Assembly (NCBI RefSeq): GCF_001463905.1
Contig: NZ_BBWR01000017.1
Location: 1 to 64,000 of the forward strand
Length of the DNA stretch: 64,000 nt
Direction of reading: 5' to 3'
From: Aureimonas frigidaquae
GTDB lineage: Bacteria; Pseudomonadota; Alphaproteobacteria; Rhizobiales; Rhizobiaceae
The position numbers and the translations under genes were made by a program. This document shows positions 3,287 to 62,170 of the stretch, piece by piece. The first letter of the stretch is position 1. Each line of letters opens with the position of its first letter. The notes below the pieces were generated by a model. It was not told where the DNA came from, searched no databases, and worked only from the letters and a program-made list of their open reading frames with translations.

Positions 3287-3508
3287 ATGACCGGCATCGC
3301 ATTCGAAGAAGGCAAGAGAGATCATGGTCGGGGCCTGCCGCAATCCGCCTGCGCCTACGAAGCGGGGACCCCGGAGTTCGCCGCCTGGCACGAAGGCTGG
3401 GGTGAGGCGATGAGCGTCGCGGCCTATGTTTCCGCACCGGCGGTCGGCGGCTCGCACCGCAAGGCGGCGGAGCCGGAACCTGCCGCACGCCTGCTTGGCA
3501 TTCTCTGA
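3287..3508 (+). CDS. Small ribosome-modulation-factor-like protein
   Basis: 73 residues from ATG 3287, preceded by GGAGG at a good distance; in-frame TTG/GTG codons at 3227-3239 could extend it by up to 20 residues. The core reads '[17 protein letters not shown]' then '[12 protein letters not shown]', which resembles the RMF pattern of a glycine/arginine helix, a 'C-P/A-Y' turn and a terminal 'W-GW-EA' helix. RMF dimerises 70S ribosomes in stationary phase. The similarity is short, so the assignment is tentative. The gene stands alone and ends in its own terminator. Confidence 0.6.
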
Positions 3509-3533
3509 CTCAGTCGTTCCTTTCGACCATCGA

Positions 3534-3569
3534 GGGGCCCCGCCGCATAGCATTGCGCGGGGCCCTTTG
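3534..3569 (+). terminator. Intrinsic terminator after the RMF-like gene
   Basis: GGGCCCCGC and GCGGGGCCC arms flank a loop containing CATAGCATT and are followed by TTT at 3566-3568. It lies 26 bases past the stop codon. Confidence 0.75.
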
Positions 3570-3686
3570 CGTGCGGTGAATGCCCGTTGCAACTGCGTAG
3601 ACGCAACGTTTGCTGGTGACGGGGAGTTTGCAACTGGAACGCGTTTCAGGCTCTATCGCAGCCTGGCAGAGTATAGGGGGAGCATG

Positions 3687-4472
3687 ATGACGATCCGCGC
3701 CTTGGTCTGGAACGAATTCATCCACGAGCAGGAAAACGACATCGTCCGGGGGATCTACCCGACGGGCATACACCAGGCGATCGCGCAGGCCCTGACCGAG
3801 GAGGACGGTATCGTCGCCGAGACCGCCACGCTGCAGGAGCCAGAACATGGGCTGACACAGGAGCGTCTGGACAAGACCGATGTCCTGATCTGGTGGGGTC
3901 ACAAAGCGCATGGCGCGGTGGACGATGCGGTGGTGGATCGGGTCCAGCAGCGTGTCGCCGAAGGAATGGGCCTCATCGTCCTGCATTCGGGCCATTTCTC
4001 GAAAATCTTCCGGCGGCTGATGGGCACCCCCTGCTCGCTGCGCTGGCGCGAGGCAGGTGAGCGGGCGCGGCTCTGGGTGATCAATCGCAACCACCCCATT
4101 GCGCGAGGGGTGGATACGGCCATTGAGCTGCAGCATTCGGAGATGTATGGCGAGCCCTTCCTGGTGCCCGAACCGATGGAGACTGTCTTTATCACCTGGT
4201 ACGAGGGCGGCGAAGTCTTCCGTTCCGGCCTGACCTATCAGCGCGGCGCAGGGCGCATCTTCTACTTCGAGCCCGGCCACGAAACCTACCCGATCTTCCA
4301 CAATGCCGATATTCGCCGCGTTCTGCGCAATGCGGTGCGCTGGGCCTACAACCCGGCAGAGCCTTGGAAGGACGTTTCCGAGGCGCCGAACCGGCCCTAT
4401 GACCAGGCCCGGGAAAAGCTGACGCCCAAGGGGCCCGCGCTGCACAAGTATGGCGAGGCGGGATACCGTTGA
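3687..4472 (+). CDS. thuA: Trehalose-utilisation protein ThuA
   Basis: 261 residues of the ThuA-like class I glutamine-amidotransferase-like fold. Marks include '[12 protein letters not shown]' at the N terminus, '[12 protein letters not shown]', '[14 protein letters not shown]' and '[16 protein letters not shown]'. In Sinorhizobium and Agrobacterium ThuA acts with ThuB in a 3-keto route for trehalose and related disaccharides. A purine-rich GGGGG lies 6 bases before ATG 3687; the adjacent ATG at 3684 is the alternative. thuB overlaps its stop codon, so the two are co-translated. No thuEFGK transporter is in the window, unlike the complete rhizobial cluster. Confidence 0.93.
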
Positions 4473-5539
4473 GCCAACGCCTGATCATCCTCGGAACGGG
4501 AGCGATCGCCCATCGTCATGCGGAGGTGTTCGGCGCCATCCCCGGCATCGTCCTGGCCGGCGCCATCGACACCAATCGCGAGCGGGCGCGGGCTTTTGCC
4601 GCGCTGCACGGGGTGGAGGCGTCCTTCGGGTCGCTCGACGATGCACTCGAATGGGGCGCTTTCGATGCTGCGGTCAACGCCACGCCCGACGCCGCGCATC
4701 ATTCCACCACGCTTTCGCTGATCGCCGCCGGCAAGCCGGTCTTCTGCGAAAAGCCGTTGGCGCTCAACCATGGCGATGCGCTGGAGATGACCGAAAGCGC
4801 CGAGCGTGCCGGTCTCATCAACATGGTCAACCTGACCTATCGCAACGCGCATGCGATCCAGATGGCGCGCCGCATGGTCCTGGCCGGGGAAATCGGCGAC
4901 GTCCGGCATGTGGAGGCGAGCTATTTGCAGAGCTGGCTGACCGGCCGGCATTGGGGGGATTGGCGCACCGACGAGCGCTGGCTGTGGCGGCTATCCTCCG
5001 CCCACGGCTCGAAGGGCGTGTTGGGGGATATCGGCATCCACATCCTGGACTTTCTGACCTTTGGCACGGGGCTCGATGTGGCCGCCCTGCATGCGCGCAT
5101 GCGCACCTTCGACAAGGCCGATGGCGGACGGATCGGGGATTACCGCCTGGATGTGAACGACAGTGTCGCCATGACGGTGGAAATGGACAATGGTGCGCTC
5201 GGGGTCGTCCACATGTCCCGTTACGCGACCGGGAACCTCAACGATCTGAACCTTGTCATCCATGGCACGATGGGCGCGCTGAAAATCTGGGCCAACCATC
5301 AGGACTCGCGGCTGAGCGCCTGCACGGGAGCCGATATCGATACGGCAAGCTGGCGTATGGTCGACTGTCCGCAGACCCCCCGCAACGAGCATCGCTTCGC
5401 GCTCGCCCTGATGTCGGGAGAGAACGGGCAGCCGGATTTCCGGCATGCGGCAGAGGTCCAGAAGCTGTTGGACCTTGCCTTCGTTTCGGATGCGCAGGGG
5501 CGCATGCTGCCGGTGGAGCCGTCACATGCGCTTGGTTGA
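4469..5539 (+). CDS. thuB: ThuB-like Gfo/Idh/MocA oxidoreductase
   Basis: 356 residues with '[17 protein letters not shown]' (nucleotide-binding GxGxxA) at the N terminus and 'VFCEKPLAL' near residue 95. The C-terminal domain carries '[13 protein letters not shown]', the usual D-x3-H catalytic pair. The TTG start lies inside the thuA stop region (4469-4472), a 4-base overlap typical of translational coupling. ThuB oxidises trehalose-type disaccharides at C3 in rhizobia; substrate assignment here rests on the thuA partnership. The only odd feature is the rare TTG start. Confidence 0.88.
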
Positions 5540-5620
5540 AATGTCTTTGCGACGACAAATCGCAGGTTCATGCTATCGCCTGCGCGCAAAGCCATTATGC
5601 GGTGGGTCCTACGGAGCTCT

Positions 5621-7099
5621 ATGATGGACGACAACAGTTCGGCACCCGTGCCCTTGCCGGCCCCGGGACGCGAGGTTGAGCTGAAGCTGCTGGTGGACGG
5701 GGGAAGCGCGGAACGCTTCCTGGCCGCCGAACTGCTTGCGACGCCGCAGGACCGGCAGAGCATTCGCACCATCTACTACGATACGGTTGACGCCGACCTG
5801 CGTGCCGCCGGCTTCATTCTTCGGGTTCGGGCCGCTGGCGGGGCCTTCAAGCAGACGGTCAAGGCGGCCGGCAGCCAGACTGCGGGGCTGTTCGCCCGGC
5901 CGGAATGGGAGCAGACCGTGCCGGGGCCGGCGCCGATGATCGATGACACGACGCCTTTGAAAATCTTTCTGGGCGCGCGGCTGAGCGCCCTGGCGCCCGT
6001 GTTCGAGGTGCGCGTCGAGCGGCGGACCTGGCTGATCGAGGAGGGCGAGGCGACCTGTGAGCTGGTGCTGGATTGCGGCTCGGTGATCGCCGGCGATCGA
6101 TCCACACCGGTGTGCGAATTCGAGCTCGAACTGCGCAGCGGGCCGGCGCGCAGCCTCTTCGACCTTGCCCGCCGGATCGATGCGATCGCGCCCGTGCGCC
6201 CGGGGCTGCTGACCAAGGCCGAACGCGGCTTCCGCCTGCTGGGCCCCGCGCGGGAGGTGACCCGATCCGAGAAGCCGGACCTGTCTCCCGACATGACGAG
6301 CGCCGTCGCGTTCCAGCGCATTGCCGCGGCCTGCATACGCCAGTTCGGCCTGAACGAGGCCCTTATCGACCCGACCTTTCCCGACGCGCTCCATCAGGCG
6401 CGGATCGGCCTTCGGCGCCTGCGCTCGGCCATGAAGGTGCACAAGGCCATGCTGGCGGATGAGCGTTTTGCTGCCATCTCTGCCGACCTGGCGTGGCTGG
6501 CAGGGGTGCTCGGCCATGCCCGCGACCTCGATGTCGTGGCGCGCCATCTGGATGACGCGGCCTTGGCGCAGGCGCGGAGCGCGGCCTATGACACGGTGCG
6601 CGTAGAACTGGCATCGGACCGGACGCGGCGTCTTCTTCTTGATTTGTCGGAATGGCTGTCGACCGGCGCCTGGTTGACGCGCCCGGAGACGGCCACCTTG
6701 CGACAGGAGCCCGTGCGCGACTCTTCTGCGGCCATTTTGAGCCGCCTGCGCAAGAAAGTGCGCAAGGCAGGACGCAATCTGACGGAGTTGAGCGACGAGG
6801 ACCGTCACACCGTGCGCAAGACGGCCAAGAAGCTGCGCTACACGGCGGAGTTCTTCGCACCGCTCTTCGACGACAAGCGCGGGCGGCGTCGGCGCGGCGC
6901 CTTCTTTGCAGCCATCGAGCAGTTTCAGGATCATCTGGGCGCCTTGAACGACATGGCGAACCTGCCGTCGACGCTGGAGGGGATCGGCATTGCGCCGCCG
7001 GCGGATCTGGCCCCGGATCCGGAGCGGCGCAAAGCCATGCTGGACGCCGCGGAAGCGGCGCATTCGGACCTGTCCGACACCAAGGCCTTCTGGCGCTAG
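5621..7099 (+). CDS. CYTH and CHAD domain protein (triphosphate tunnel metalloenzyme, polyphosphate-associated)
   Basis: 492 residues. The CYTH domain (about residues 12-205) opens with 'EVELKLLV', the ExExK signature of triphosphate tunnel enzymes, and has alternating basic/acidic strands ('ELVLDCGSVI', 'FELELRSG'). The CHAD domain (about 225-480) is helical and histidine/arginine/lysine rich: 'ALHQARIGLRRLRSAMKVH', 'HARDLDV', 'VRKTAKKLRYTAEFF' and 'FQDHLGALNDM'. Such proteins hydrolyse inorganic triphosphate and bind polyphosphate granules. GGAG lies 4 bases before ATG 5621 (second ATG at 5624). It is monocistronic and converges on the next gene with a 1-base gap. Confidence 0.92.
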   Translation: MMDDNSSAPVPLPAPGREVELKLLVDGGSAERFLAAELLATPQDRQSIRTIYYDTVDADLRAAGFILRVRAAGGAFKQTVKAAGSQTAGLFARPEWEQTVPGPAPMIDDTTPLKIFLGARLSALAPVFEVRVERRTWLIEEGEATCELVLDCGSVIAGDRSTPVCEFELELRSGPARSLFDLARRIDAIAPVRPGLLTKAERGFRLLGPAREVTRSEKPDLSPDMTSAVAFQRIAAACIRQFGLNEALIDPTFPDALHQARIGLRRLRSAMKVHKAMLADERFAAISADLAWLAGVLGHARDLDVVARHLDDAALAQARSAAYDTVRVELASDRTRRLLLDLSEWLSTGAWLTRPETATLRQEPVRDSSAAILSRLRKKVRKAGRNLTELSDEDRHTVRKTAKKLRYTAEFFAPLFDDKRGRRRRGAFFAAIEQFQDHLGALNDMANLPSTLEGIGIAPPADLAPDPERRKAMLDAAEAAHSDLSDTKAFWR

Positions 7100-7711: not shown

Positions 7712-8389
7712 ATGCGGCTGCTTCTGGCAGAAGACAACGAGGATCTCGGGGACGCCGTCTATCGGCACCTGAAGAATGCGGGCCACTCGGTGGAGTGGGC
7801 CCAGCGCGGCGATGCCGTCCTCGACGCCGTCCGTGCCGAGCCCTACGATGCGCTTATCCTGGATCTGATGCTGCCGGGACGGGACGGCATATCCATCATC
7901 GAGGAACTGCGCCGGGCGCGCAACGCCATCCCCATCCTGGTGGTGACGGCACGGGCGGAGATCGACGATAAGGTCAGCCTTCTCGACCGGGGTGCCGACG
8001 ACTATCTGGTCAAGCCCTTCGACCTGCGGGAGCTCGATGCGCGCCTGCGCGCCATTCTGCGCCGGCCCGCCGGCCGTATGACGAGCCTGGTGACCTATGG
8101 CGATCTCACCGTCGATCTGGCCGGTCACAGCGTCGCCATCGATCGCCACCCGGTGGAACTGTCCCGACGCGAGTTCCGGCTGTTGGAAATCCTTCTGGCG
8201 CGCATGGGATCGGTGGTGCCGAAAGAGCGCCTGATGGCTCAGCTCTTCAGCTTCGACGAGATGGTCTCCATCAACGCGCTGGAGCTCTATGTCTCGCGCC
8301 TGCGGCGTAAGCTCGACGGCGCGGCACTGGAAATCGTTACGATCCGCGGGGTCGGCTATGTCGCGCGGCTCGCCGATGATGGCGAGTGA
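7712..8389 (+). CDS. OmpR-family response regulator (TctD/PgtA-like)
   Basis: 225 residues. The receiver domain begins 'MRLLLAEDNEDLGDAVYR', with the acidic pocket and phospho-acceptor D51 in 'LILDLMLPGRDG', then 'VVTARAE' and 'DDYLVKPFDLREL'. The C-terminal winged helix (about 125-220) ends in 'YVSRLRRKLDG' and 'IRGVGYVA', typical of OmpR/TctD regulators. The start at 7712 gives the canonical receiver N terminus. The stop overlaps the kinase gene by 14 bases, so the two are coupled. From neighbourhood it should control the downstream tctCBA transporter genes (inference). Confidence 0.93.
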   Translation: MRLLLAEDNEDLGDAVYRHLKNAGHSVEWAQRGDAVLDAVRAEPYDALILDLMLPGRDGISIIEELRRARNAIPILVVTARAEIDDKVSLLDRGADDYLVKPFDLRELDARLRAILRRPAGRMTSLVTYGDLTVDLAGHSVAIDRHPVELSRREFRLLEILLARMGSVVPKERLMAQLFSFDEMVSINALELYVSRLRRKLDGAALEIVTIRGVGYVARLADDGE

Positions 8390-10838
8390 CGGCTTCTCGA
8401 TCCGCCGCCGCATCCTGTGGCTGGCCATCGCGCTGCTTGTCGGCGCCGGACTGGCGTTGATCGTCTTCGTCCAGGATTATGCGCGCCGGGCTTCCGATAC
8501 GGCCTATGACAGGCTGTTGTCGGCCTCGGCCTTCACCATTGCCGGCGCTGTGCAGGCGGAAGCCGGGGACGTGACTGTGGAGCTGCCGCTCGCATCCTTC
8601 GCCATGTTTGCCGATGACGACCGCGTCTTCTATGCCATCACCGGGCCGGACGGGGGCTTCGTGACGGGCTATCGCGAGCTGGGCGCCGGCCTGCCCGTCG
8701 CATCCGATGCGGGGCCGCATTACGCCGATGTGGAGTTCAAGGGTGAGACGGTCCGGATCGCGACGGTGGGGCGGCTCGTTTCTACAGCCTCCGGCACCGG
8801 GTGGGTCACCATCCGCGTGGCCGAAACGAAGGGCGAGCGCGCGGTCCTGGCCCGGGAAATCCTGAGCAATGCGCTGTTGCCGATCGTCGCCATGACGCTT
8901 CTGGCCATCGGCCTGGTGTGGTTTGCGATTGGCCGTGCCTTCCGGCCCCTGACACTCCTGGAGCGCAACCTGAACCGACGCTCCCCCGACGATCTTTCGC
9001 CGGTCGAGGAGGCGGTACCGACAGAGGTGCGGCGACTGGTCGGCGCGCTGAACGACTTCATCGGCCGGCTCGCTTTGGCCACCGAACGGCTCGGCGCGCT
9101 GGTGGCCGAGGCCGCGCACGAGGTGCGCACCCCCCTGGCGTCGCTGCGCGCCCAGGCTGAGGTCGCCCTGGCGGAGAACGATCCGGCGGCGCTGCGCCGG
9201 CGCGTGGAGCGCATCCATCAAGGGGCCGTACAGGCCAGCCACCTCGTCAGCCAGCTCCTGATGGACGCCACCGTCGCGCACCGGCTCGAGGCACGGCGCG
9301 TCGATCCGGTGCTGGTGGGCGACCTGGTGAACGAGGTGGTTGGACGGCTATCACCCGATCTCTCCGAACGTCTGGATGTCGATCTTCCCAGCGCGGCCCG
9401 CAGCCTTGCCATCGATGCGGACAGGGTTGTCCTGCGGGAGATGCTCCGCAATCTGATCGACAATGCGCTGACCTATGCGCCGGGGCCGGTGCTGGTCGAG
9501 GTGGTGGCCGTGGAGGGCGCTGCCGTCCTGTCGGTGATCGATCATGGGCCCGGCATCGCCGCGGCCGAGCGGCAGGCCGTGACGCAGCGTTTCCGGCGCG
9601 GCAGCGCCAGCCAGGGCACCAGCGGCTCGGGCCTGGGCCTCGCCATCGTGGCGCGCGTGGTGGCGGCATCCGGCGGAAGCCTGCAACTCGACGATACGCC
9701 GGGCGGCGGGCTGACCGCGCGCGTGCGCTTGCCCGCACGGCGGACCGGTTCCCCGGCGCGACAGAATTCCCGGGGGTTGGCTGCGGTCGGCTCGGCAATG
9801 CTTCTGGCCGCGCTCCTGGTGCTGCCGGAGCAGGGGCACGCAGGCGGCATCAAGACCGCCCCGTCCGGCCGGACCGATCAGACGCTGACAATCCTCGGCA
9901 CCACGGACACGCCGCTGTTCGATCCGCTCATCGAAGGGTTCCAGCGGGTCAATCCCGACATTTCCGTGCGCTACGAGGAAGGGGAGACCCTGCCGATCTA
10001 TGAGGAGGTGGTGGCCGGGACGGCCGATCCGGCGCCGGACCTCATCATCAGTTCGGCGGCCGATCTGCAGGTCAAGCTTGCCAATGACGGGCTCGCCCAG
10101 GCCTATGAGGCGCCTGCGCTTGCCAGTCTGCCGCGTTGGGCACAGTGGCGGCGCGAGGTCTTCGGCTTCACCTTCGAGCCGGCCGTCATCGTCTACAACC
10201 GGCGGCTCGTCCAGCCGCAGGAGGTGCCGCGCACGCGCATCGCGCTGGCCGAGCTCCTGGAGCGCGATCCGGCCCGCTTTGCCGGCAAGGTCGCGACCTA
10301 CGATATCGCCACGAGTGGGGTCGGCTACCTGCTCGCGGCGCAGGATCAGGCGATCTCCTCCTACTTCTGGCGGCTGGCCAATGCGTTCGGGCATGTGGAT
10401 GCGATCCTGTCGGGCAGCAGCCCGGACATACTGGATCGGATCGAGAGTGGGGAGCTGGCGCTCGGCTACAACGTGCTCGGCTCCTATGCTCTGGCACGCC
10501 AGGCGGCCGGGCAGGAGATCGGCGTCGTAGTGCCGGACGATTACGTGCTCGTGCTGACGCGCACCATGCTGATCCCGCAAGGGGCACGGCAGCCGGAACT
10601 GGCGCGCCGTTTCGTCGACTTCGTCCTGTCTGCCGAAGGGCAGGCCATCCTGGCCGGGCCCATCGCGCTCGGCGCCGTGATGCCCGGAACGGTCGGCGCC
10701 CACACATCCGACACGATCGCCATGATGGGGCGCGGTACCGTGCAGCCGATCGGGCTCGGGCCGGGGCTGCTGGTCGCCCTGGACGGGCAGCGCCGGGCCC
10801 GCTTTCTGGAAACCTGGCTCGAGATCGTCGGCCCATGA
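8376..10838 (+). CDS. Sensor histidine kinase fused to a periplasmic solute-binding protein
   Basis: One uninterrupted 820-residue frame. Order: membrane segment about 13-32; periplasmic sensor about 33-165; second membrane segment about 168-188; HAMP-like linker; HisKA with phospho-acceptor H248 ('AAHEVRTPLASL'); HATPase with N box 'NLIDNALTYA' (~358), G1 'DHGPGI' (~389) and G2 'GSGLGLAIV' (~416). A third hydrophobic, signal-peptide-like segment follows at about 467-487 ('AMLLAALLVLPEQGHA'). Then comes a complete iron-type ABC solute-binding fold to the end ('LTILGTTDTPLFDPLIEGF', 'PDLIISSAADLQ', 'VAVMPGT'-like C-terminal region). The fold should lie in the periplasm. This matches PgtB plus PgtC of the phosphoglycerate regulatory system, or TctE plus a binding protein, in one chain. 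The start could also be ATG 8379. Confidence 0.9.
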   Translation: MMASDGFSIRRRILWLAIALLVGAGLALIVFVQDYARRASDTAYDRLLSASAFTIAGAVQAEAGDVTVELPLASFAMFADDDRVFYAITGPDGGFVTGYRELGAGLPVASDAGPHYADVEFKGETVRIATVGRLVSTASGTGWVTIRVAETKGERAVLAREILSNALLPIVAMTLLAIGLVWFAIGRAFRPLTLLERNLNRRSPDDLSPVEEAVPTEVRRLVGALNDFIGRLALATERLGALVAEAAHEVRTPLASLRAQAEVALAENDPAALRRRVERIHQGAVQASHLVSQLLMDATVAHRLEARRVDPVLVGDLVNEVVGRLSPDLSERLDVDLPSAARSLAIDADRVVLREMLRNLIDNALTYAPGPVLVEVVAVEGAAVLSVIDHGPGIAAAERQAVTQRFRRGSASQGTSGSGLGLAIVARVVAASGGSLQLDDTPGGGLTARVRLPARRTGSPARQNSRGLAAVGSAMLLAALLVLPEQGHAGGIKTAPSGRTDQTLTILGTTDTPLFDPLIEGFQRVNPDISVRYEEGETLPIYEEVVAGTADPAPDLIISSAADLQVKLANDGLAQAYEAPALASLPRWAQWRREVFGFTFEPAVIVYNRRLVQPQEVPRTRIALAELLERDPARFAGKVATYDIATSGVGYLLAAQDQAISSYFWRLANAFGHVDAILSGSSPDILDRIESGELALGYNVLGSYALARQAAGQEIGVVVPDDYVLVLTRTMLIPQGARQPELARRFVDFVLSAEGQAILAGPIALGAVMPGTVGAHTSDTIAMMGRGTVQPIGLGPGLLVALDGQRRARFLETWLEIVGP

Positions 10839-10951: not shown

Positions 10952-11905
10952 ATGAAGCGTTTCATCGCTGCTGCCATGCTGGCGGCGGGTATGTCCAGCG
11001 GCGCCTTCGCGCAGGCTGCATCCTACGAAATCATGGCGCCGGCATCGCCGGGCGGCGGCTGGGACCAGACGGCCCGCGCCATGCAGACCGTGCTCCAGGA
11101 GACCGGCATTGCCAGCGACGTGCAGGTCGTGAACGTTCCCGGCGCCGGCGGCACCATCGGGCTCGCGCAATTCGTCCGCGGCAAGGAAGGCGATCCGAGC
11201 GCCTTGATCGTCGGCGGTTATGTGATGGTCGGCGCGATCCTGACCAACAATTCACCGGTGACCCTGGCCGAGGTGACCCCGATCGCGCGGTTGACGGGCG
11301 AGGCCGAGGCCATCGTCGTGCCGGCATCCTCGCCGTTCCAGACCATCGACGACCTGGCTGCCGCGCTGAAGGAAAACCCCGGCGCCGTTGCCATTGCCGG
11401 CGGCTCGGCGGGCGGAACGGACCATATCGCGGCCGGCCTTTTTGCCGATGCCGCAGGCGTCGACCCAACCAAAATCAACTACATCGCCTTTTCCGGCGGC
11501 GGCGAAGCGCTGGCGGCGATCCTGGGGGCGCAGGTCGCTGCGGGTATTTCCGGCTACGGGGAATTCGAGTCCCAGATCCAGGCCGGCACCTTGCGGATCC
11601 TGGCGGTGACGACCGACGATCGGATCGAGGGCGTCGACGCGCCGACGCTGAAGGAAGCGGGCTACGACGTGTCGCTGGAGAACTGGCGCATGGTGTCGGC
11701 CGCGCCCGGCATCACGGCCGAAGAGACCGCCGCCATTACCGCCAACATCGAGAAGATGGTGCAGAGCGAGGAGTGGAAGGCGGTTCTGGAGCGCAACAAC
11801 TGGCAGGATGCGTTCCTGGCCGGTGATGCGTTCAAGACGCAGCTTCAGACCGATATCGAGAACACCCGTGCGATCCTGACCAAGATCGGGCTCGTCAAGG
11901 GATGA
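10952..11905 (+). CDS. tctC: Tripartite tricarboxylate transporter, periplasmic binding subunit TctC
   Basis: 317 residues. The signal peptide '[20 protein letters not shown]' is followed by the TctC/BugD fold: '[18 protein letters not shown]', '[15 protein letters not shown]' and '[13 protein letters not shown]'. These proteins capture tricarboxylates or other organic acids in the periplasm and deliver them to TctAB. GGAGG sits 5 bases before the ATG. The gene starts 113 bases after the kinase fusion and opens the tctCBA operon. The ligand cannot be read from sequence. Confidence 0.95.
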
Positions 11906-12390
11906 CCGATCTTCGGCAGGAACAAGCCGGACAGCGCCGCCCCGACCGGGCGGCGTTTGCCATCGGCATCGCGCTCGGCGTGCTCGGCCTTGTCGTCGGC
12001 ATCGACGCCAGCCAGCTCAGCGGGGGCGCTTACGCCCAGATCGGCCCGACGGCCTTTCCCTATGCCATCGCCGCCGCACTTCTGGTCCTGGCGGCCTGGA
12101 CCATGGTCGAAGCCTGGCGCGGTGATTTTCCGGCGCGGGACGTGGACAAGATCGATCCCATCGCCTGGATCGTCGGCGGGCTCGCGGCGCAGGCGCTGCT
12201 GCTGCATGCGGCCGGCTTCTCGATCGCGACGGGCCTGCTCTTTGCCGCGACGGCGCGTGCCTTCGGCAAACGGCAATTGTGGAAGACGATCCCCATCGGC
12301 ATCCTCCTGTCGCTCGCAGTCTGGGGTGTGTTCTTCGGTCTCCTGCGTCTGCGCCTTCCGGCCGGGCCGCTGGAATCCCTTTTCATCTGA
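11902..12390 (+). CDS. tctB: Tripartite tricarboxylate transporter, small membrane subunit TctB
   Basis: 162 residues with about four membrane helices ('FAIGIALGVLGLVVGI', 'FPYAIAAALLVLAAWTMV', 'WIVGGLAAQALLLHAAGF', 'ILLSLAVWGVFFGLLRL'). This is the size and topology of TctB, the small subunit that stabilises TctA. The ATG overlaps the tctC stop (ATGA). An 'AQIGPTAFPY' segment after the first helix is a usual TctB feature. Confidence 0.92.
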   Translation: MTDLRQEQAGQRRPDRAAFAIGIALGVLGLVVGIDASQLSGGAYAQIGPTAFPYAIAAALLVLAAWTMVEAWRGDFPARDVDKIDPIAWIVGGLAAQALLLHAAGFSIATGLLFAATARAFGKRQLWKTIPIGILLSLAVWGVFFGLLRLRLPAGPLESLFI

Positions 12391-12411: not shown

Positions 12412-13929
12412 ATGGACACGCTCGCGCTTCTGGGCCAGGGCCTGATCACGGCCGCCCAGCCCATCTATCTCCTTTACGCGCTGATCGGCGTTACTCTGGG
12501 AACGGCGGTCGGTGTTCTGCCCGGCATCGGACCCGCGCTCACGGTGGCGCTGCTCCTGCCCGTGACCTACCAGCTCGACGCGACGGGCTCCCTCATCATG
12601 TTCGCCGGCATCTACTATGGCGGCATGTATGGCGGATCGACGACGTCGATCCTTTTGAACACGCCGGGGGAAAGCGCCTCGATCATCACCGCGCTCGAAG
12701 GCAACAAAATGGCCCGGAAAGGGCGCGGCGGCCCGGCATTGGCCACGGCCGCGATCGGCTCCTTCGTGGCAGGGCTGATCGCCACGCTCGGCCTGGCCTT
12801 CATTGCCCCCTATATCGTGCGCTTTGCCCTGTCCTTCGGACCGGCAGAATATTTCGCCCTGATGATCCTGGCCTTCGTGACCGTCTCGGCCGCCTTCGGC
12901 GATTCCGCCCTGCGTGGTCTGACGGCGCTGGCGCTCGGCCTGACGCTCGGGCTCGTGGGGATCGACCTGCAGACCGGCCAGGCGCGCCTGGCCTTCGGCA
13001 TTCCGGAGCTCCTGGACGGGATCGAGGTGACGACACTGGCCGTCGCGCTGTTTGCCATCGGCGAAGCGCTGGTCATTGCCGGCGGATCGTCCCGCGACGA
13101 CGGGCAGGTGGTGGCCGTCAAAGGCTCCGTCTGGATGAGCCGGGAGGACTGGAAGCGTTCGTGGAAGCCCTGGCTGCGCGGCACCGTCATCGGCTTCCCG
13201 ATCGGCGCGATGCCTGCCGGCGGCGCGGAGATCGGCACCTTCCTCTCCTATACGACAGAAAAGAGCCTCTCCAAGCATAAGGAAGAGTTCGGCCACGGCG
13301 CCATCGAAGGCGTCGCCGGGCCCGAAGCGGCCAACAACGCCTCGGCTGCCGGCACGCTGGTTCCGCTGCTGACCCTCGGCCTGCCGACCTCCGCCACGGC
13401 GGCGATCATGCTGGCTGCGTTCCAGCAGTTCGGACTGCAGCCCGGGCCGCTCCTGTTCATGACATCGCCGCAGCTCGTCTGGGGGCTGATCGCCAGCCTT
13501 CTGATCGCCAATCTGATGCTGGTTGTCCTGAACCTGCCGCTGATCGGTCTTTGGGTCCGGCTTCTGACGATTCCGAAGCCATGGCTCTATGCCGGCATCC
13601 TCGTTTTCGCAACGCTCGGCTGCATTGGCGCCAACAACTCGTCGACGGAACTCGGCATGCTTCTGGCCTTCGGCCTCGTCGGCTACATGCTGCGGCGGTT
13701 CGGCTACCCGATCGCCCCGGTCGTCGTGGGCCTGATCCTCGGACCGATGGCAGAGCAACAGTTGCGCCGGGCCCTCGCCATCAGCCAGGGGGATCCGATG
13801 GTGCTCGTCCATTCGCCGTTGGCGATCATCCTCCTGACCCTGGCGGTGCTGGCGCTGGTCGTGCCGATGATCATGCGGGCGCGGGGCCGCGGAGAGGTCC
13901 TGTCGCAGATGGCGTCTGACGAGGACTGA
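12412..13929 (+). CDS. tctA: Tripartite tricarboxylate transporter, large membrane subunit TctA
   Basis: 505 residues, about 11-12 membrane segments. The family signatures '[17 protein letters not shown]' and '[16 protein letters not shown]' near the N terminus and the repeat-related '[15 protein letters not shown]' in the second half are intact. TctA forms the sodium- or proton-coupled permeation path for the organic acid brought by TctC. It lies 21 bases after tctB and is followed by a strong terminator, closing the operon. Confidence 0.96.
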
Positions 13930-51554: not shown

Positions 51555-52220
51555 ATGCGCATTCTAGTCGTCGAGGACGATCGGGACCTCAACCGTCAAT
51601 TAGCTGAAGCGCTCATCCAGGCCGGCTATGTGGTGGATCGCGCCGCTGACGGGGAGGAAGGGCATTTCCTGGGCGATACCGAGCCCTACGACGCGGTGAT
51701 CCTGGATGTCGGGCTGCCCCGGATGGATGGCATCAGCGTGTTGGAGCGTTGGCGGCGTGATGGGCGGACCATGCCGGTGCTCATCCTGACGGCGCGGGAC
51801 CGGTGGAGCGACAAGGTCGCGGGGATTGATGCCGGCGCCGATGATTACGTGGCCAAGCCCTTCCACGTGGAAGAGGTGCTGGCCCGGGTGCGCGCGCTGA
51901 TCCGCCGGGCGGCGGGGCATGCATCCTCCGATATCCATTGCGGCCCCTTGCGGCTGGACACCCGCGCCTCCAGGGCGTCGCTCGACGGTACGCCCCTCAA
52001 GCTCACCTCGCACGAGTACCGGCTCCTGTCCTACCTGATGCACCATCAGGGGGAGGTCGTGTCGCGGGCCGTCCTGACCGAGCATATGTACGACCAGGAT
52101 TTCGACCGGGATTCCAATACGATCGAAGTCTTCATCGGCCGTCTGCGTCGCAAGATCGGCAGCGATATGATCGAAACCGTCCGCGGCCTCGGCTATCGCC
52201 TGTCGCCGCCGACGCCATAG
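51555..52220 (+). CDS. feuP: FeuP/PhoP-like OmpR-family response regulator
   Basis: 221 residues. Receiver domain with phospho-acceptor D51 ('AVILDVGLPRMDG'), 'ILTARDRWSDKVAGIDAGAD' and 'DYVAKPFHVEEVLARVRALI'; winged helix ending 'DRDSNTIEVFIGRLRRKIG' and 'ETVRGLGYRL'. The phrases 'DGEEGHFLGDTEPYDAV' and 'HMYDQDFDRDSNTIEV' are characteristic of rhizobial FeuP, which controls cyclic-glucan export and envelope genes. It lies 10 bases before the kinase gene and upstream of the cytochrome c maturation genes, as in Rhizobium. Confidence 0.9.
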   Translation: MRILVVEDDRDLNRQLAEALIQAGYVVDRAADGEEGHFLGDTEPYDAVILDVGLPRMDGISVLERWRRDGRTMPVLILTARDRWSDKVAGIDAGADDYVAKPFHVEEVLARVRALIRRAAGHASSDIHCGPLRLDTRASRASLDGTPLKLTSHEYRLLSYLMHHQGEVVSRAVLTEHMYDQDFDRDSNTIEVFIGRLRRKIGSDMIETVRGLGYRLSPPTP

Positions 52221-52230
52221 GCGCCGCCCG

Positions 52231-53631
52231 ATGATCGGCCGGATCCGGCGTCGCCTGACCGACAGCCTGACCCTTCGGGTCATCCTCCTGTCCAGTCTCT
52301 GGGCGGTCGCGGCCTTCGTCGTCATCGGCAGCCTGATCTCCAGCCTATACAAAGATACGGCCGAGGCTGGATTCCAGGCCGTCGTGCGCGCGCAGCTTTT
52401 CAACCTCATCAACACGGTGGCCGTGCGGGACGGCGGCGTGCTCTCGGGCTCGCCGGACCTCGGCGACCTCAGCTATTCGCAGCCCCTGTCGGGCTGGTAC
52501 TGGGAAGTGCTGCCGGCCAGCGACAACACCTCCGGCCGGCTCGCCTCCTTCTCGCTCGGGCCCGGCCGCATCGCGGCGCCGTCGACGGGCGAGGTGCCGT
52601 TCGACGGGCAGTATCGCCGCTCTTACGAGGCCCCGGGCCTGGACGGCGAAACCGTCTATGTCGAGGAGGCCGAAGTGGTGCTGGATGCCGACAACCATGC
52701 CGCCCGCTTTCGCGTCATGGGCAATGCCGACGTGGTCCGGGCAGACGTCGCCCGCTTCAACCGCAGGCTCTCGCTCTATCTCGGCGCCTTCGGCGCGGGG
52801 TCGATCCTGATCAACGCGCTTGCCATTCTGATCGGCCTGTCGCCGCTCGGCCGTGTCCGCCGTGCCCTGGGAGCGGTGCGCGCAGGGCGCAGCGAGCGCC
52901 TGGACGAGCGCCTCCCGCGGGAGGTCCGGCCCCTGGCCGTGGAGTTGAACGCGCTGATCGACAACAACCGCCGCATCGTCGAGCGCGCACGCACGCAGGT
53001 CGGCAATCTCGCCCACTCCCTGAAGACGCCCATCGCCGTCCTGACCAACGAGGCCGGCGCTATCGGGGGCGAGCAGGGGCGTATCGTGGCCGAGCAGAGC
53101 GAGCGCATGCGCATCCAGGTGCAGCATTACCTGGACCGGGCGCGGCGCGCGGCGTCCATCGAGGGAACGATCGTTCGGGCCCGGCTGCAACCCTCGGTCG
53201 AGCGGATCGTCAAGGTCATTGCGCGGCTGAACCCGGATCTGTCCGTCACCGTGGAGCGGACCCCGTCCGATTACGACCCTGTCTTTGCCGGTGAGCGCGA
53301 GGACCTGGAGGAGATGCTCGGCAATCTGATGGAGAACGCCGGCAAATGGGCGCGCAGCCGCGTCCTCGTGACCCTGTCCGACGCTGGTCCCGATCGCATC
53401 CGAGTGACGATCGACGATGATGGCCCGGGCCTGACGGCCGAGGAGATGCTCGAGGCGACGAAGCGCGGGCGACGGCTGGACGAAGCCAAGCCGGGCAGCG
53501 GCCTCGGCCTGTCCATCGTCGCCGATACGATTTTGCAATACCGCGGGGATTTTTTGTTGCAACGTGCCCCTTTGGGAGGGCTTCGCGCCGAAATGATCTT
53601 GCCACGGGCCGTTGAGGGCACGATGTCTTGA
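52231..53631 (+). CDS. feuQ: FeuQ/PhoQ-like sensor histidine kinase
   Basis: 466 residues. Membrane helices at about 19-36 ('VILLSSLWAVAAFVVIGS') and 185-205, periplasmic sensor domain between them. HisKA-like segment with H262 ('VGNLAHSLKTPIAVLTNEAG'), ATPase N box 'NLMENAGKWARS', G1 'DDDGPGL' and G2 'GSGLGLSIV'. The 'LAHSLKTP' phospho-acceptor context is that of PhoQ-class kinases. Partner of the adjacent regulator; the small periplasmic protein two genes upstream may modulate its sensor domain. Confidence 0.9.
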   Translation: MIGRIRRRLTDSLTLRVILLSSLWAVAAFVVIGSLISSLYKDTAEAGFQAVVRAQLFNLINTVAVRDGGVLSGSPDLGDLSYSQPLSGWYWEVLPASDNTSGRLASFSLGPGRIAAPSTGEVPFDGQYRRSYEAPGLDGETVYVEEAEVVLDADNHAARFRVMGNADVVRADVARFNRRLSLYLGAFGAGSILINALAILIGLSPLGRVRRALGAVRAGRSERLDERLPREVRPLAVELNALIDNNRRIVERARTQVGNLAHSLKTPIAVLTNEAGAIGGEQGRIVAEQSERMRIQVQHYLDRARRAASIEGTIVRARLQPSVERIVKVIARLNPDLSVTVERTPSDYDPVFAGEREDLEEMLGNLMENAGKWARSRVLVTLSDAGPDRIRVTIDDDGPGLTAEEMLEATKRGRRLDEAKPGSGLGLSIVADTILQYRGDFLLQRAPLGGLRAEMILPRAVEGTMS

Positions 53632-60002: not shown

Positions 60003-60098
60003 GTTCATTCACGTCGGTCCACCGAGGGAGTGAATGCCATGCAATTGCAGCCCGCGAGCGAGTTTCCAGCGGCGCGAAACGACGCTACAGCTTTTTCC

Positions 60099-60773
60099 AT
60101 GAAAATCCTGCTGATCGAAGACGACAACGAGGCGGCGGCCTATCTCGTCAAGGCGCTGCGCGAGGCCGGCCATGTGGCCGACCGTGCGGGCGATGGCGAT
60201 ACCGGCTTCCATATGGCCGATACGCATGGCTACGACGCCTGGATCGTCGATCGGATGCTGCCGGGGCGTGACGGGCTGTCGCTCATTTCGGAGCTACGGC
60301 GCAAGGGCAACCACACGCCGGCTCTGATCCTGTCGGCGCTCGGCCAGGTCGATGACCGCGTCACCGGCCTGCGTGCCGGCGGCGACGACTACCTTACCAA
60401 GCCGTTCTCCTTCTCCGAGCTTCTGGCGCGGATCGAGGTGCTGGGCCGCCGGCGGGGAGGCAAGGACCAGGAAACGCTGTACCGTGTGGGCGATTTGGAG
60501 CTCGACCGCCTCTCGCACGAGGTACGGCGTGCCGGCAAGCCGATCATCCTGCAGCCGCGGGAGTTCCGTCTGCTCGAATATCTGATGAAGCATGCCGGCC
60601 AGGTGGTGACGCGCACCATGCTCCTGGAAAATGTCTGGGACTACCATTTCGACCCGCAGACCAACGTGATCGACGTGCATATTTCGCGCCTGCGCTCCAA
60701 GATCGAACGTGATTTCGGCAGCCCGCTCCTGCATACGGTGCGCGGCTCCGGCTACATCATGCGGGCGGACTGA
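60099..60773 (+). CDS. OmpR-family response regulator
   Basis: 224 residues. Starts 'MKILLIEDDNEAAAYLVKAL', phospho-acceptor D51 in 'AWIVDRMLPGRDG', 'ILSALGQVDDRVTGLRAGGD' and 'DYLTKPFSFSELLARIEVLG'. The winged helix ends 'TNVIDVHISRLRSKIERDFG' and 'LHTVRGSGYIM', similar to CusR/CopR/QseB-type regulators. ATG 60099 gives the standard N terminus, though ATG 60030/60039 are in frame and no clear ribosome-binding site marks any of them. Five bases before the partner kinase. Confidence 0.9.
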   Translation: MKILLIEDDNEAAAYLVKALREAGHVADRAGDGDTGFHMADTHGYDAWIVDRMLPGRDGLSLISELRRKGNHTPALILSALGQVDDRVTGLRAGGDDYLTKPFSFSELLARIEVLGRRRGGKDQETLYRVGDLELDRLSHEVRRAGKPIILQPREFRLLEYLMKHAGQVVTRTMLLENVWDYHFDPQTNVIDVHISRLRSKIERDFGSPLLHTVRGSGYIMRAD

Positions 60774-60778
60774 CGCGC

Positions 60779-62170
60779 GTGAAGCGCCTGCGTGCACTCA
60801 TGCGGATGACATCCGTCCGCCTGTCGGCCATCTTCCTGGCGCTCTTCGCCATCTTCGCCGTGGTGCTCGTCGTCTACGTGACCGCCACGGCGGCCGGCAT
60901 TCTGCAGCAGCAGAGCCGCGCCGTCATCACCGACGAGATCCGCGAGCTCGGCGGCGTCTATGCCAGGGGCGGGATCGTCGGGCTCGTTCGCTCCATCGAC
61001 CAGCGTTCGCGCCAACCCGGCGCCTCGCTCTATCTCGTCACCGATGCGACGGGGCGGATATTGTCGGGCAACGTCCAGAGCCTCGATCCCGGCATATTGG
61101 ACCGCGCGGGCTTTATTTCCGTGCCCTTCGGCTATGAGCGCTTCACGGAGGATTCCGAGGATCGCTACCATCTTGCGGTGGCGGAGGTCGTCTCCCTGCC
61201 GAACGGCATGCGCATTCTGGTCGGCCGCGATACGACGGATCTCGACCGCATCCGCCTGGTGGTGCGCGACGCGCTGGTTCTGGCGCTGGGGCTCATGGGC
61301 GCGGGTGCGCTCTTTGCCTGGCTCCTGGTCGGGCGCCGGGCGCTCCAGCGGCTCGACCTAATGTCCCGCTCGTCCCGCCGTATCCTGGCCGGTGACCTGT
61401 CGGAACGGCTCCCGGTCACCGGTGCGGGGGACGAGTTCGACCGCCTGTCGGAGAACATGAACACGCTCCTGGCCCGGGTGGCCCTGCTGCAGGAGGGGCT
61501 GCGACAGGTCTCCGACAATATTGCCCATGATCTGAAGACGCCTCTGACGCGCCTGCGCAACCGGGCCGAGGCCGCCTTGATCGATCGCTCGTCCGATCCG
61601 CGCCAGGCGCTGGACGCCGCGGTGACAGAGGCGGACCAGATGATCCGCACCTTCGACGCGCTCCTGATGATCGGCCGTGTGGAGGCCGGGTCCCACCCGG
61701 TGGAAAAGGTGAAGGTGGACCTTGCCGCCATGGCCGCCGACGTGGCCGAGCTTTACGAGCCCGTCGCCGAGGAAGCCGGCGCCACCTTGTCCATCGATGC
61801 GCCGCTGCCGGTTCCGGCCATGGTCAGCCGCGAGCTGATCGCCCAGACCTTGGCCAACCTGATCGACAATGCCCTGAAATACGGGACCGGCAATCCGGCG
61901 CCGCAGGTCAGCGTGCGTGTGAGCGCCAAGGACGGGTTCTGCCGCATCAGTGTTGCCGATAACGGGCCGGGCATCCCGGACGATCAGAAGGAGCGCGTCT
62001 TCGAGCGCTTCTACCGGCTGGATCGCAGCCGCACCCGTCCGGGCTCGGGGCTCGGCCTTTCGCTTGTCCAGGCCATTGCGCGCCTGCATGGCGGGCGGGT
62101 ACGCATAGAGGATGCCGCGCCGGGGCTCCGGGTGGTGATCGACATACCGGACGGACTTGCAGCATCCTGA
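60779..62170 (+). CDS. Sensor histidine kinase, partner of the degP-linked regulator
   Basis: 463 residues from GTG 60779. Membrane helices about 12-34 ('LSAIFLALFAIFAVVLVVYV') and 165-188, a short periplasmic domain between, HAMP with 'LDLMSRSSRRILAGDLSERL', HisKA with H250 ('DNIAHDLKTPLTRLRNRAEA'), N box 'NLIDNALKYG', G1 'DNGPGI' and G2 'GSGLGLSLV'. All catalytic features are intact. Position behind degP suggests an envelope-stress input, but the ligand is unknown. Confidence 0.92.
   Translation: MKRLRALMRMTSVRLSAIFLALFAIFAVVLVVYVTATAAGILQQQSRAVITDEIRELGGVYARGGIVGLVRSIDQRSRQPGASLYLVTDATGRILSGNVQSLDPGILDRAGFISVPFGYERFTEDSEDRYHLAVAEVVSLPNGMRILVGRDTTDLDRIRLVVRDALVLALGLMGAGALFAWLLVGRRALQRLDLMSRSSRRILAGDLSERLPVTGAGDEFDRLSENMNTLLARVALLQEGLRQVSDNIAHDLKTPLTRLRNRAEAALIDRSSDPRQALDAAVTEADQMIRTFDALLMIGRVEAGSHPVEKVKVDLAAMAADVAELYEPVAEEAGATLSIDAPLPVPAMVSRELIAQTLANLIDNALKYGTGNPAPQVSVRVSAKDGFCRISVADNGPGIPDDQKERVFERFYRLDRSRTRPGSGLGLSLVQAIARLHGGRVRIEDAAPGLRVVIDIPDGLAAS

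Follow-up and report, generated by a model that had tools for sequence, protein, structure and literature searches.

A histidine kinase gene of Aureimonas frigidaquae that also encodes a solute-binding protein: a possible signal-peptidase-cut precursor beside tctCBA

The region analyzed is a stretch of 64,000 nucleotides from Aureimonas frigidaquae (contig NZ_BBWR01000017.1), called the window here, and coordinates refer to it unless another locus is named. At 8376-10838 on the forward strand it holds one open reading frame, translated into 820 residues with no internal stop, in which a sensor histidine kinase is followed by a complete solute-binding protein (SBP). An earlier note on this DNA had read the order sensor, HisKA (H248), HATPase, hydrophobic segment and SBP in one frame beside tctCBA, and this is borne out by translation and by Pfam. 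In the protein, 2CSK_N spans residues 26-162, HisKA 239-297 and HATPase_c 349-455; about 50 residues further on, SBP_bac_11, 6, 1 and 8 all match at approximately 512-771. HAMP gave a sub-threshold match only. The AlphaFold2 (AF2) model of the 820-residue chain has long helices at 9-57 and 153-188. H248 is invariant across 43 aligned fused homologues. Judging from the junction between the two halves, the gene probably encodes a precursor of two proteins that is cut by signal peptidase, so that a putative citrate-binding SBP is freed to serve as co-receptor of the kinase.

The regulator gene immediately upstream (7712-8389) ends 14 bases inside the start of the kinase; its top NCBIfam model is TctD, at 202 bits, which is under the cut-off of 337 for that model. 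tctC, tctB and tctA lie downstream of the fusion gene on the same strand. An OmpR-family regulator beside a 2CSK_N-HisKA-HATPase kinase, with tctCBA adjacent, is the arrangement of TctDE/BctDE-type systems.

Table 1. Features of the fusion locus and of related loci (coordinates of L-numbered loci are those of the locus itself; aa, amino acid residues; TM, transmembrane segment; pLDDT, predicted local distance difference test; TTT, tripartite tricarboxylate transporter)
Feature	Position	Strand	Basis
OmpR-type response regulator, TctD-like	7712..8389	+	Pfam Response_reg + Trans_reg_C
Fused histidine kinase-SBP, putative precursor, 820 aa, single frame	8376..10838	+	translation + Pfam
TM1 + 2CSK_N periplasmic sensor domain (aa 26-162) + TM2 (within aa 153-188)	8400..8939	+	Pfam 2CSK_N E 1e-33; AF2 helices
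Kinase core, HisKA (H248) + HATPase_c, aa 239-455	9090..9740	+	Pfam
Junction resembling an internal signal peptide: n-region with Arg, short hydrophobic core, predicted site GHA↓GG after A489	9771..9842	+	
Predicted mature SBP domain, MctA/3c9h-like, aa 490-820	9843..10835	+	profile, model (pLDDT 95.9), Foldseek
tctC, TTT solute receptor	10952..11905	+	Pfam TctC
tctB	11902..12390	+	Pfam TctB
tctA	12412..13929	+	Pfam TctA, 518 bits
Second fusion	L117 6995-9382, contig C2		
Reversed loci	L092 5835-8498; L093 5934-8602; L096 5913-8489		

The junction was compared among fused homologues reduced at 85% redundancy, which left 45 of 63 sequences (the partial L089 was excluded); alignment A1 contains 43 rows, with L056 and L095 left out. 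Column 489 of this alignment, position -1 of the predicted cleavage site, is Ala in 42 of 43 rows and a gap in the remaining one. At -3 (column 487) there is A in 31, T in 5 and V in 3 of the 43, and the residue between the two is variable. These columns have the -3/-1 pattern of a predicted signal peptidase I site. Otherwise the junction (454-488) is freely variable and gapped, and no other column there reaches 32 of 43. All four Ala codons are used at -1 (GCC 17, GCG 16, GCA 6, GCT 3), so that the residue has been kept through changes in the DNA. A strict AxA motif follows the hydrophobic core at the junction in 34 of the 45 nonredundant sequences, as against 5 for TM1 and none for TM2; in the tail proper AxA is found in 35 of 45, compared with a shuffled mean of 21.0, and not one of 2000 shuffles was as high.

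The hydrophobicity of the segment leads in the same direction. Its mean KD19 value is 1.89, that of TM1 2.97 and that of TM2 2.49; among the signal peptides used for comparison, those of stand-alone SBP relatives average 1.81 (AxA in 19/38) and those of TctC 1.60 (AxA in 55/61). The junction has the features of a signal peptidase I substrate, namely a short core, a positive n-region and small residues at -3 and -1. Mean net charge is +2.2 before the segment and -1.1 after it, and is higher before than after in 37 of the 45 sequences. Because this distribution fits an N-in, C-out orientation, it supports a chain that re-enters the membrane after the kinase and places the SBP in the periplasm, as the earlier note had proposed. 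In the AF2 model of the whole chain the domains are confident, and pLDDT falls below 50 for residues 458-478 and 480-490, where the third hydrophobic segment is drawn as a low-confidence helix of ten residues only. The motif counts were repeated on a held-out set of 24 further loci (L173, identical to L073, was left out), in which AxA occurs in 21 against a shuffled mean of 14.0 (0/2000 as high) and mean hydrophobicity is 1.90.

Several observations weigh against cleavage at this site. In the window itself the predicted site is GHA↓GG and not AxA, and Gly at -3 presumably makes a weaker signal peptidase site. The relaxed motif [AGSTV]xA is found in 24 of the 24 held-out sequences, with a shuffled mean of 20.0 and 14 of 2000 shuffles as high, and the still looser [AGSVTIL]x[AGS] does not discriminate at all, being present after TM2 in 37 of 45. 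In the separate alignment of the held-out set, gaps shift the site, and only 19 of 25 rows have Ala in column 489. Because the sequences share ancestry, the counts cannot be treated as independent, and the stretch between P453 and the hydrophobic core is as short as 3 residues in some members. A third membrane anchor left on a kinase would also be unusual. A weight matrix trained on TctC signal peptides distinguished the junctions from TM1 (area under the curve 0.935) and from TM2 (0.885) and did not distinguish them from the split signal peptides (0.431), but it was rejected as overfitted to TctC. Its scores were weakly above those of shuffled sequences, with a shuffle maximum higher than the observed median, and in the window it did not pick GHA. 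For these reasons we relied on the simple -3/-1 counts.

A search for homologues found the same domain order widely. The full-length fusion is present in one stop-free frame in 20 of the 21 genomes of the genus, including that of the window. Together with further loci from genome searches, the best 80 of 202 loci from a scan of public genomes gave 117 loci that could be classed, 64 as fused, 45 as split into two genes and 8 as one half only. Since L001 is the window and L117 repeats L002, the 64 comprise 62 distinct fused loci besides the window, a few of them partial at contig ends. Another 25 loci, all chosen because they already had a full-length match, were fused in one frame in 25 of 25 cases (L173 is the duplicate noted above, and one other is 95% identical to an earlier locus). 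Genomes with the fused form come from Aureimonas, Devosia, Rhizobiaceae, Yoonia and Alsobacter and, among betaproteobacteria, from Alcaligenaceae; plasmids of Azospirillum and Peteryoungia have it as well. Even draws of genomes show that the fusion is the minority state. Among 385 genomes of the class there were 21 matches at E 1e-60, of which 3 were fused (the window's own genome, G247 and G327). Of 398 genomes of the phylum, with two candidates scored per genome, 93 matched, and a single full-length match was found in the window's own genome only. Long open frames had made G567 and G735 candidates for additional fusions; they were rejected when the frames read as split.

From the phylum draw, the 52 matching genomes with two matches (the window's own excluded) were classified by arrangement. 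In 28 the SBP gene follows the kinase gene on the same strand within 200 bases, in 13 the pair is divergent within 6 kb, and in 2 the SBP follows the kinase within 6 kb; in 7 not both were found or they lay on different contigs, and in 2 they were far apart. Among the 18 kinase-then-SBP loci of the contig-scan set, 16 (all but L094 and L108) have a candidate SBP start codon that shares an ATGA or GTGA with the stop of the kinase, and the same overlap is seen in L148, L149 and L150. This suggests that the fusion arose from an overlapping kinase/SBP gene pair, in which a single-base shift within ATGA/GTGA would join both frames and leave the SBP signal peptide in mid-chain. A tree of 73 rows requires 6 changes of arrangement and places the window within one large fused clade; it is a quick LG+G4 tree with long branches, in which the placing of L009/L010, L015, L023, L002 and L096 is unsure. 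Inside the fused clade the order is reversed, SBP then kinase, in Devosia (L092, L093) and in Bartonella (L096, on a long branch). The SBPs of the reversed loci begin with a signal-peptide-like segment of their own, so that within the family the SBP is also encoded as a free protein. Duplication of a fusion with later trimming, or a rearrangement, could account for the look of these three loci. The Marinobacter similis locus L095 (5976-8439) is a possible separate fusion, sister of a split Halomonas pair; its kinase C terminus seems to be read in another frame, which could be a sequencing error.

The earlier note had the third segment as a lasting tether, by which the receptor stays covalently joined to the kinase. 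We consider such an uncleaved anchor, with kinase and SBP acting as one polypeptide, unlikely. It is true that the frame is stop-free and conserved throughout nearly all of the genus, and that inside-positive charge occurs without cleavage in TM1, which is oriented alike, and so by itself is no proof of cleavage. Against a tether, the segment resembles signal peptides and not TM1 or TM2 in hydrophobicity, the -1 Ala is kept family-wide while the remaining junction drifts, AF2 draws only a short helix of low confidence, and relatives of the split and reversed kinds, including two lineages nested in the fused clade, have a gene of its own for the SBP. A further possibility, to which we give somewhat less credence still, is a signalling polyprotein whose intact chain would hold the kinase through its own SBP, cutting being the step that both frees the co-receptor and makes the kinase responsive; sensor and co-receptor would then be strictly 1:1 and active only after export.

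Two alternatives remain. It is quite improbable that the SBP is also translated from an in-frame start in the junction, with the fusion as a by-product. From residue 450 up to the hydrophobic core, 40 of the 45 sequences have an in-frame ATG, GTG or TTG (ATG in 18), and the window has an ATG (M475) inside the core, past the stretch scanned for starts. A Shine-Dalgarno-like stretch precedes such a codon in only 10 of 45, 5 have no start codon, and in the window no scanned start codon is preceded by one; an internal start was accordingly rejected as not conserved. That the junction reflects an error of sequencing or assembly, or a pseudogene of recent origin, we regard as having next to no chance. 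The distant Marinobacter locus, with its kinase C terminus apparently out of frame at the junction, is the one case in its favor, but for the window the explanation is refuted by independent genomes that hold the same single frame, both in the genus and in the distinct loci from alpha- and betaproteobacteria. The frame has no internal stop, 9740-9840 included, where the earlier note had judged that a stop or frameshift would undo its reading. A precursor cut by signal peptidase is the reading that we prefer.

The identity of the SBP points to citrate. In a Foldseek search with the SBP model, Agrobacterium tumefaciens 3c9h came first and MctA entries next; the latter are titled metal-citrate-binding protein, and several were solved bound to Mg2+-citrate or citrate. 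TM-scores by query length against MctA and 3c9h are 0.88-0.94, and a profile of 60 SBPs (28 fused and 32 split rows) scored 397.1 bits to 3c9h and 298.7 to MctA 7f6n. The earlier note's description of a full iron-type ABC binding-protein fold is refined accordingly: the SBP is complete but not iron-type in a generic sense, 3c9h and MctA being its nearest solved relatives. Six MctA residues are mutated in the entries, S26, D28, S79, S164, T199 and Y221 (named from the entry titles, their numbering matched to the chain by an inferred offset of 2). Four of the six are identical in the window (D511, S560, S647, Y704), and the other two are Ser/Thr exchanges, T509 for S26 and S682 for T199. D28, S79, S164 and Y221 are each kept in 27 of the 28 fused rows, and in 32, 30, 31 and 32 of the 32 split rows, respectively; the T199 position is Ser or Thr in 27/28 fused and 31/32 split rows. 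Since the SBP matches a protein solved with Mg2+-citrate and the mutated residues are identical or Ser/Thr-exchanged, the ligand is likely to be citrate or metal-citrate.

Gene neighborhoods agree with a tricarboxylate ligand. When the tally was confined to loci flanked by 4 kb or more on each side (10 fused and 2 split loci were left out), tctA was found nearby in 31 of 49 fused loci and in 16 of 19 split ones; of the 31, it lies downstream on the same strand in 9, as in the window, and downstream on the opposite strand in 20. Together with the citrate-site residues, this lends indirect support to the earlier suggestion that the ligand is also the TctC substrate. Two findings speak against the assignment: 18 of the 49 fused loci have no tctA nearby, and the S26 position varies, being Ala in 17 of the 32 split rows. 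Other transporters are found beside some members. In a split Bradyrhizobium system a gene for a 2-hydroxycarboxylate transporter is close by, separated by one porin gene, and in the Alcaligenaceae locus L075 an ABC transporter follows the fused gene. The SBP of that transporter, and the SBPs encoded at the corresponding position in L079 and L088, share 31-35% identity with the fused SBP of the respective locus.

The window's own genome encodes a second full-length kinase-SBP fusion, on another contig and 39% identical (L002/L117). Its neighbors include a PgtCBA-like set, consisting of an SBP_bac_6 protein, a second histidine kinase and a sigma-54 regulator, as well as a phosphonate-type SBP and a two-domain ABC permease; no tctCBA was found in the 18 kb read. 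Alone among the 60 SBPs, its SBP has lost D28, S79, S164 and Y221 together. With these citrate-site residues lost and PgtCBA-like genes in place of tctCBA, this fusion probably senses a ligand other than that of the window fusion.

We call the system in the window a putative TctDE system that depends on an SBP and obtains this co-receptor from the gene of the kinase itself. In the proposed scheme the kinase half would be inserted in the membrane through TM1 and TM2, and the hydrophobic segment after HATPase would serve as a Sec signal peptide within the chain, directing export of the SBP at the C terminus. Signal peptidase I would cut after A489, freeing the SBP in amounts equimolar with the kinase, and the TctE-type kinase would keep a short third membrane anchor. 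Once loaded with citrate or metal-citrate, the SBP would dock on the 2CSK_N sensor domain, a step modelled on BctC-BctE of Bordetella. The docked kinase would raise phosphorylation of the TctD-like regulator, which in turn would switch on tctCBA and hence import of the same kind of ligand.

Some elements of this scheme have precedents. FbcH, the cytochrome b/c1 precursor of Bradyrhizobium japonicum, yields two proteins from one gene through an internal signal peptidase cut, as proposed here, but is a respiratory enzyme and not a signalling pair; our literature search for FbcH found no such paper. Kinases of the BvgS/EvgS type combine Venus-flytrap SBP-like domains and a kinase in one chain, but there the SBP-like domains are N-terminal to the kinase and without an internal signal peptide, whereas the SBP of the window is C-terminal. 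In PgtA/PgtB/PgtC a periplasmic binding protein signals through a kinase, as in our proposal, but from three separate genes and with a sigma-54-type regulator. MctA (PDB 7f6e series) and 3c9h share the fold and site residues of the window SBP and differ in being, by title, separate SBPs of ABC transporters with no kinase joined; literature searches for MctA or 3c9h returned no such paper, the matches to '3c9h' being unrelated. The closest known systems also include the two-gene relatives, a TctE-type kinase followed by an MctA-like SBP, which share domains and order with the fusion, are homologous over both halves and are often near tctCBA, but have separate genes, often with a 4-nt overlap. 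No functional study of them was met in the literature searches made.

For Bordetella, the excerpted text of the review PMC5812351 states that citrate-loaded BctC is required for induction and interacts with BctE, and excerpts of PMC5812351 and PMC9602780 describe binding of the ligand-loaded SBP to the periplasmic domain of the kinase. The BctC-BctE/BctD system is, in these excerpts, like that of the window in its TctE-type kinase, in adjacent tctCBA and in citrate, the predicted ligand of the window SBP. It differs in that the co-receptor is the transport SBP itself, BctC, from a separate TctC-family gene; in the window there is a second, MctA-like SBP inside the kinase gene, in addition to TctC. 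SBP-activated kinases are thus already known (PMC11113362 and PMC9602780, in excerpt), with only about ten cases of sensor kinases activated by SBPs characterized by 2022 according to the latter excerpt. In a survey of Azospirillum, SBP_bac_1 appears among the kinase input domains tabulated for three of four strains (PMC4618731, in excerpt), an entry that is probably the kinase-SBP fusion protein and that the excerpted text does not discuss. Among the matches listed by literature searches aimed at the fusion, there was no paper that treats it or its junction. The architecture is already in public records under another name: of the 12 best plasmid matches that cover the fusion in one piece, 11 are named 'extracellular solute-binding protein' and the twelfth is unannotated.

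Elsewhere in the window, a gene for a CYTH-CHAD protein (5570-7099) lies just 5' to the regulator and fusion genes on the same strand, and at 3426-5539 a ThuA-domain protein gene is followed, with an overlap of a few bases, by one for a Gfo/Idh/MocA oxidoreductase. Two more kinase genes, at 51555-53631 and 60030-62170, are each preceded by a regulator-sized open frame and are located near ccmF and a trypsin-PDZ protease gene.

Gene neighborhood is a usual guide to the partner of an SBP-dependent kinase (PMC11113362, in excerpt); in the present family, which many alpha- and betaproteobacteria have, a single gene tells which partner belongs to the kinase. Annotation as 'extracellular solute-binding protein' can hide such kinases. 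The three natural forms, split, fused and reversed, offer a means of testing whether SBP-kinase signalling needs a tether or a fixed stoichiometry. If cleavage does take place, a bacterial signalling pair would join the few cases in which signal peptidase makes two proteins from one gene.

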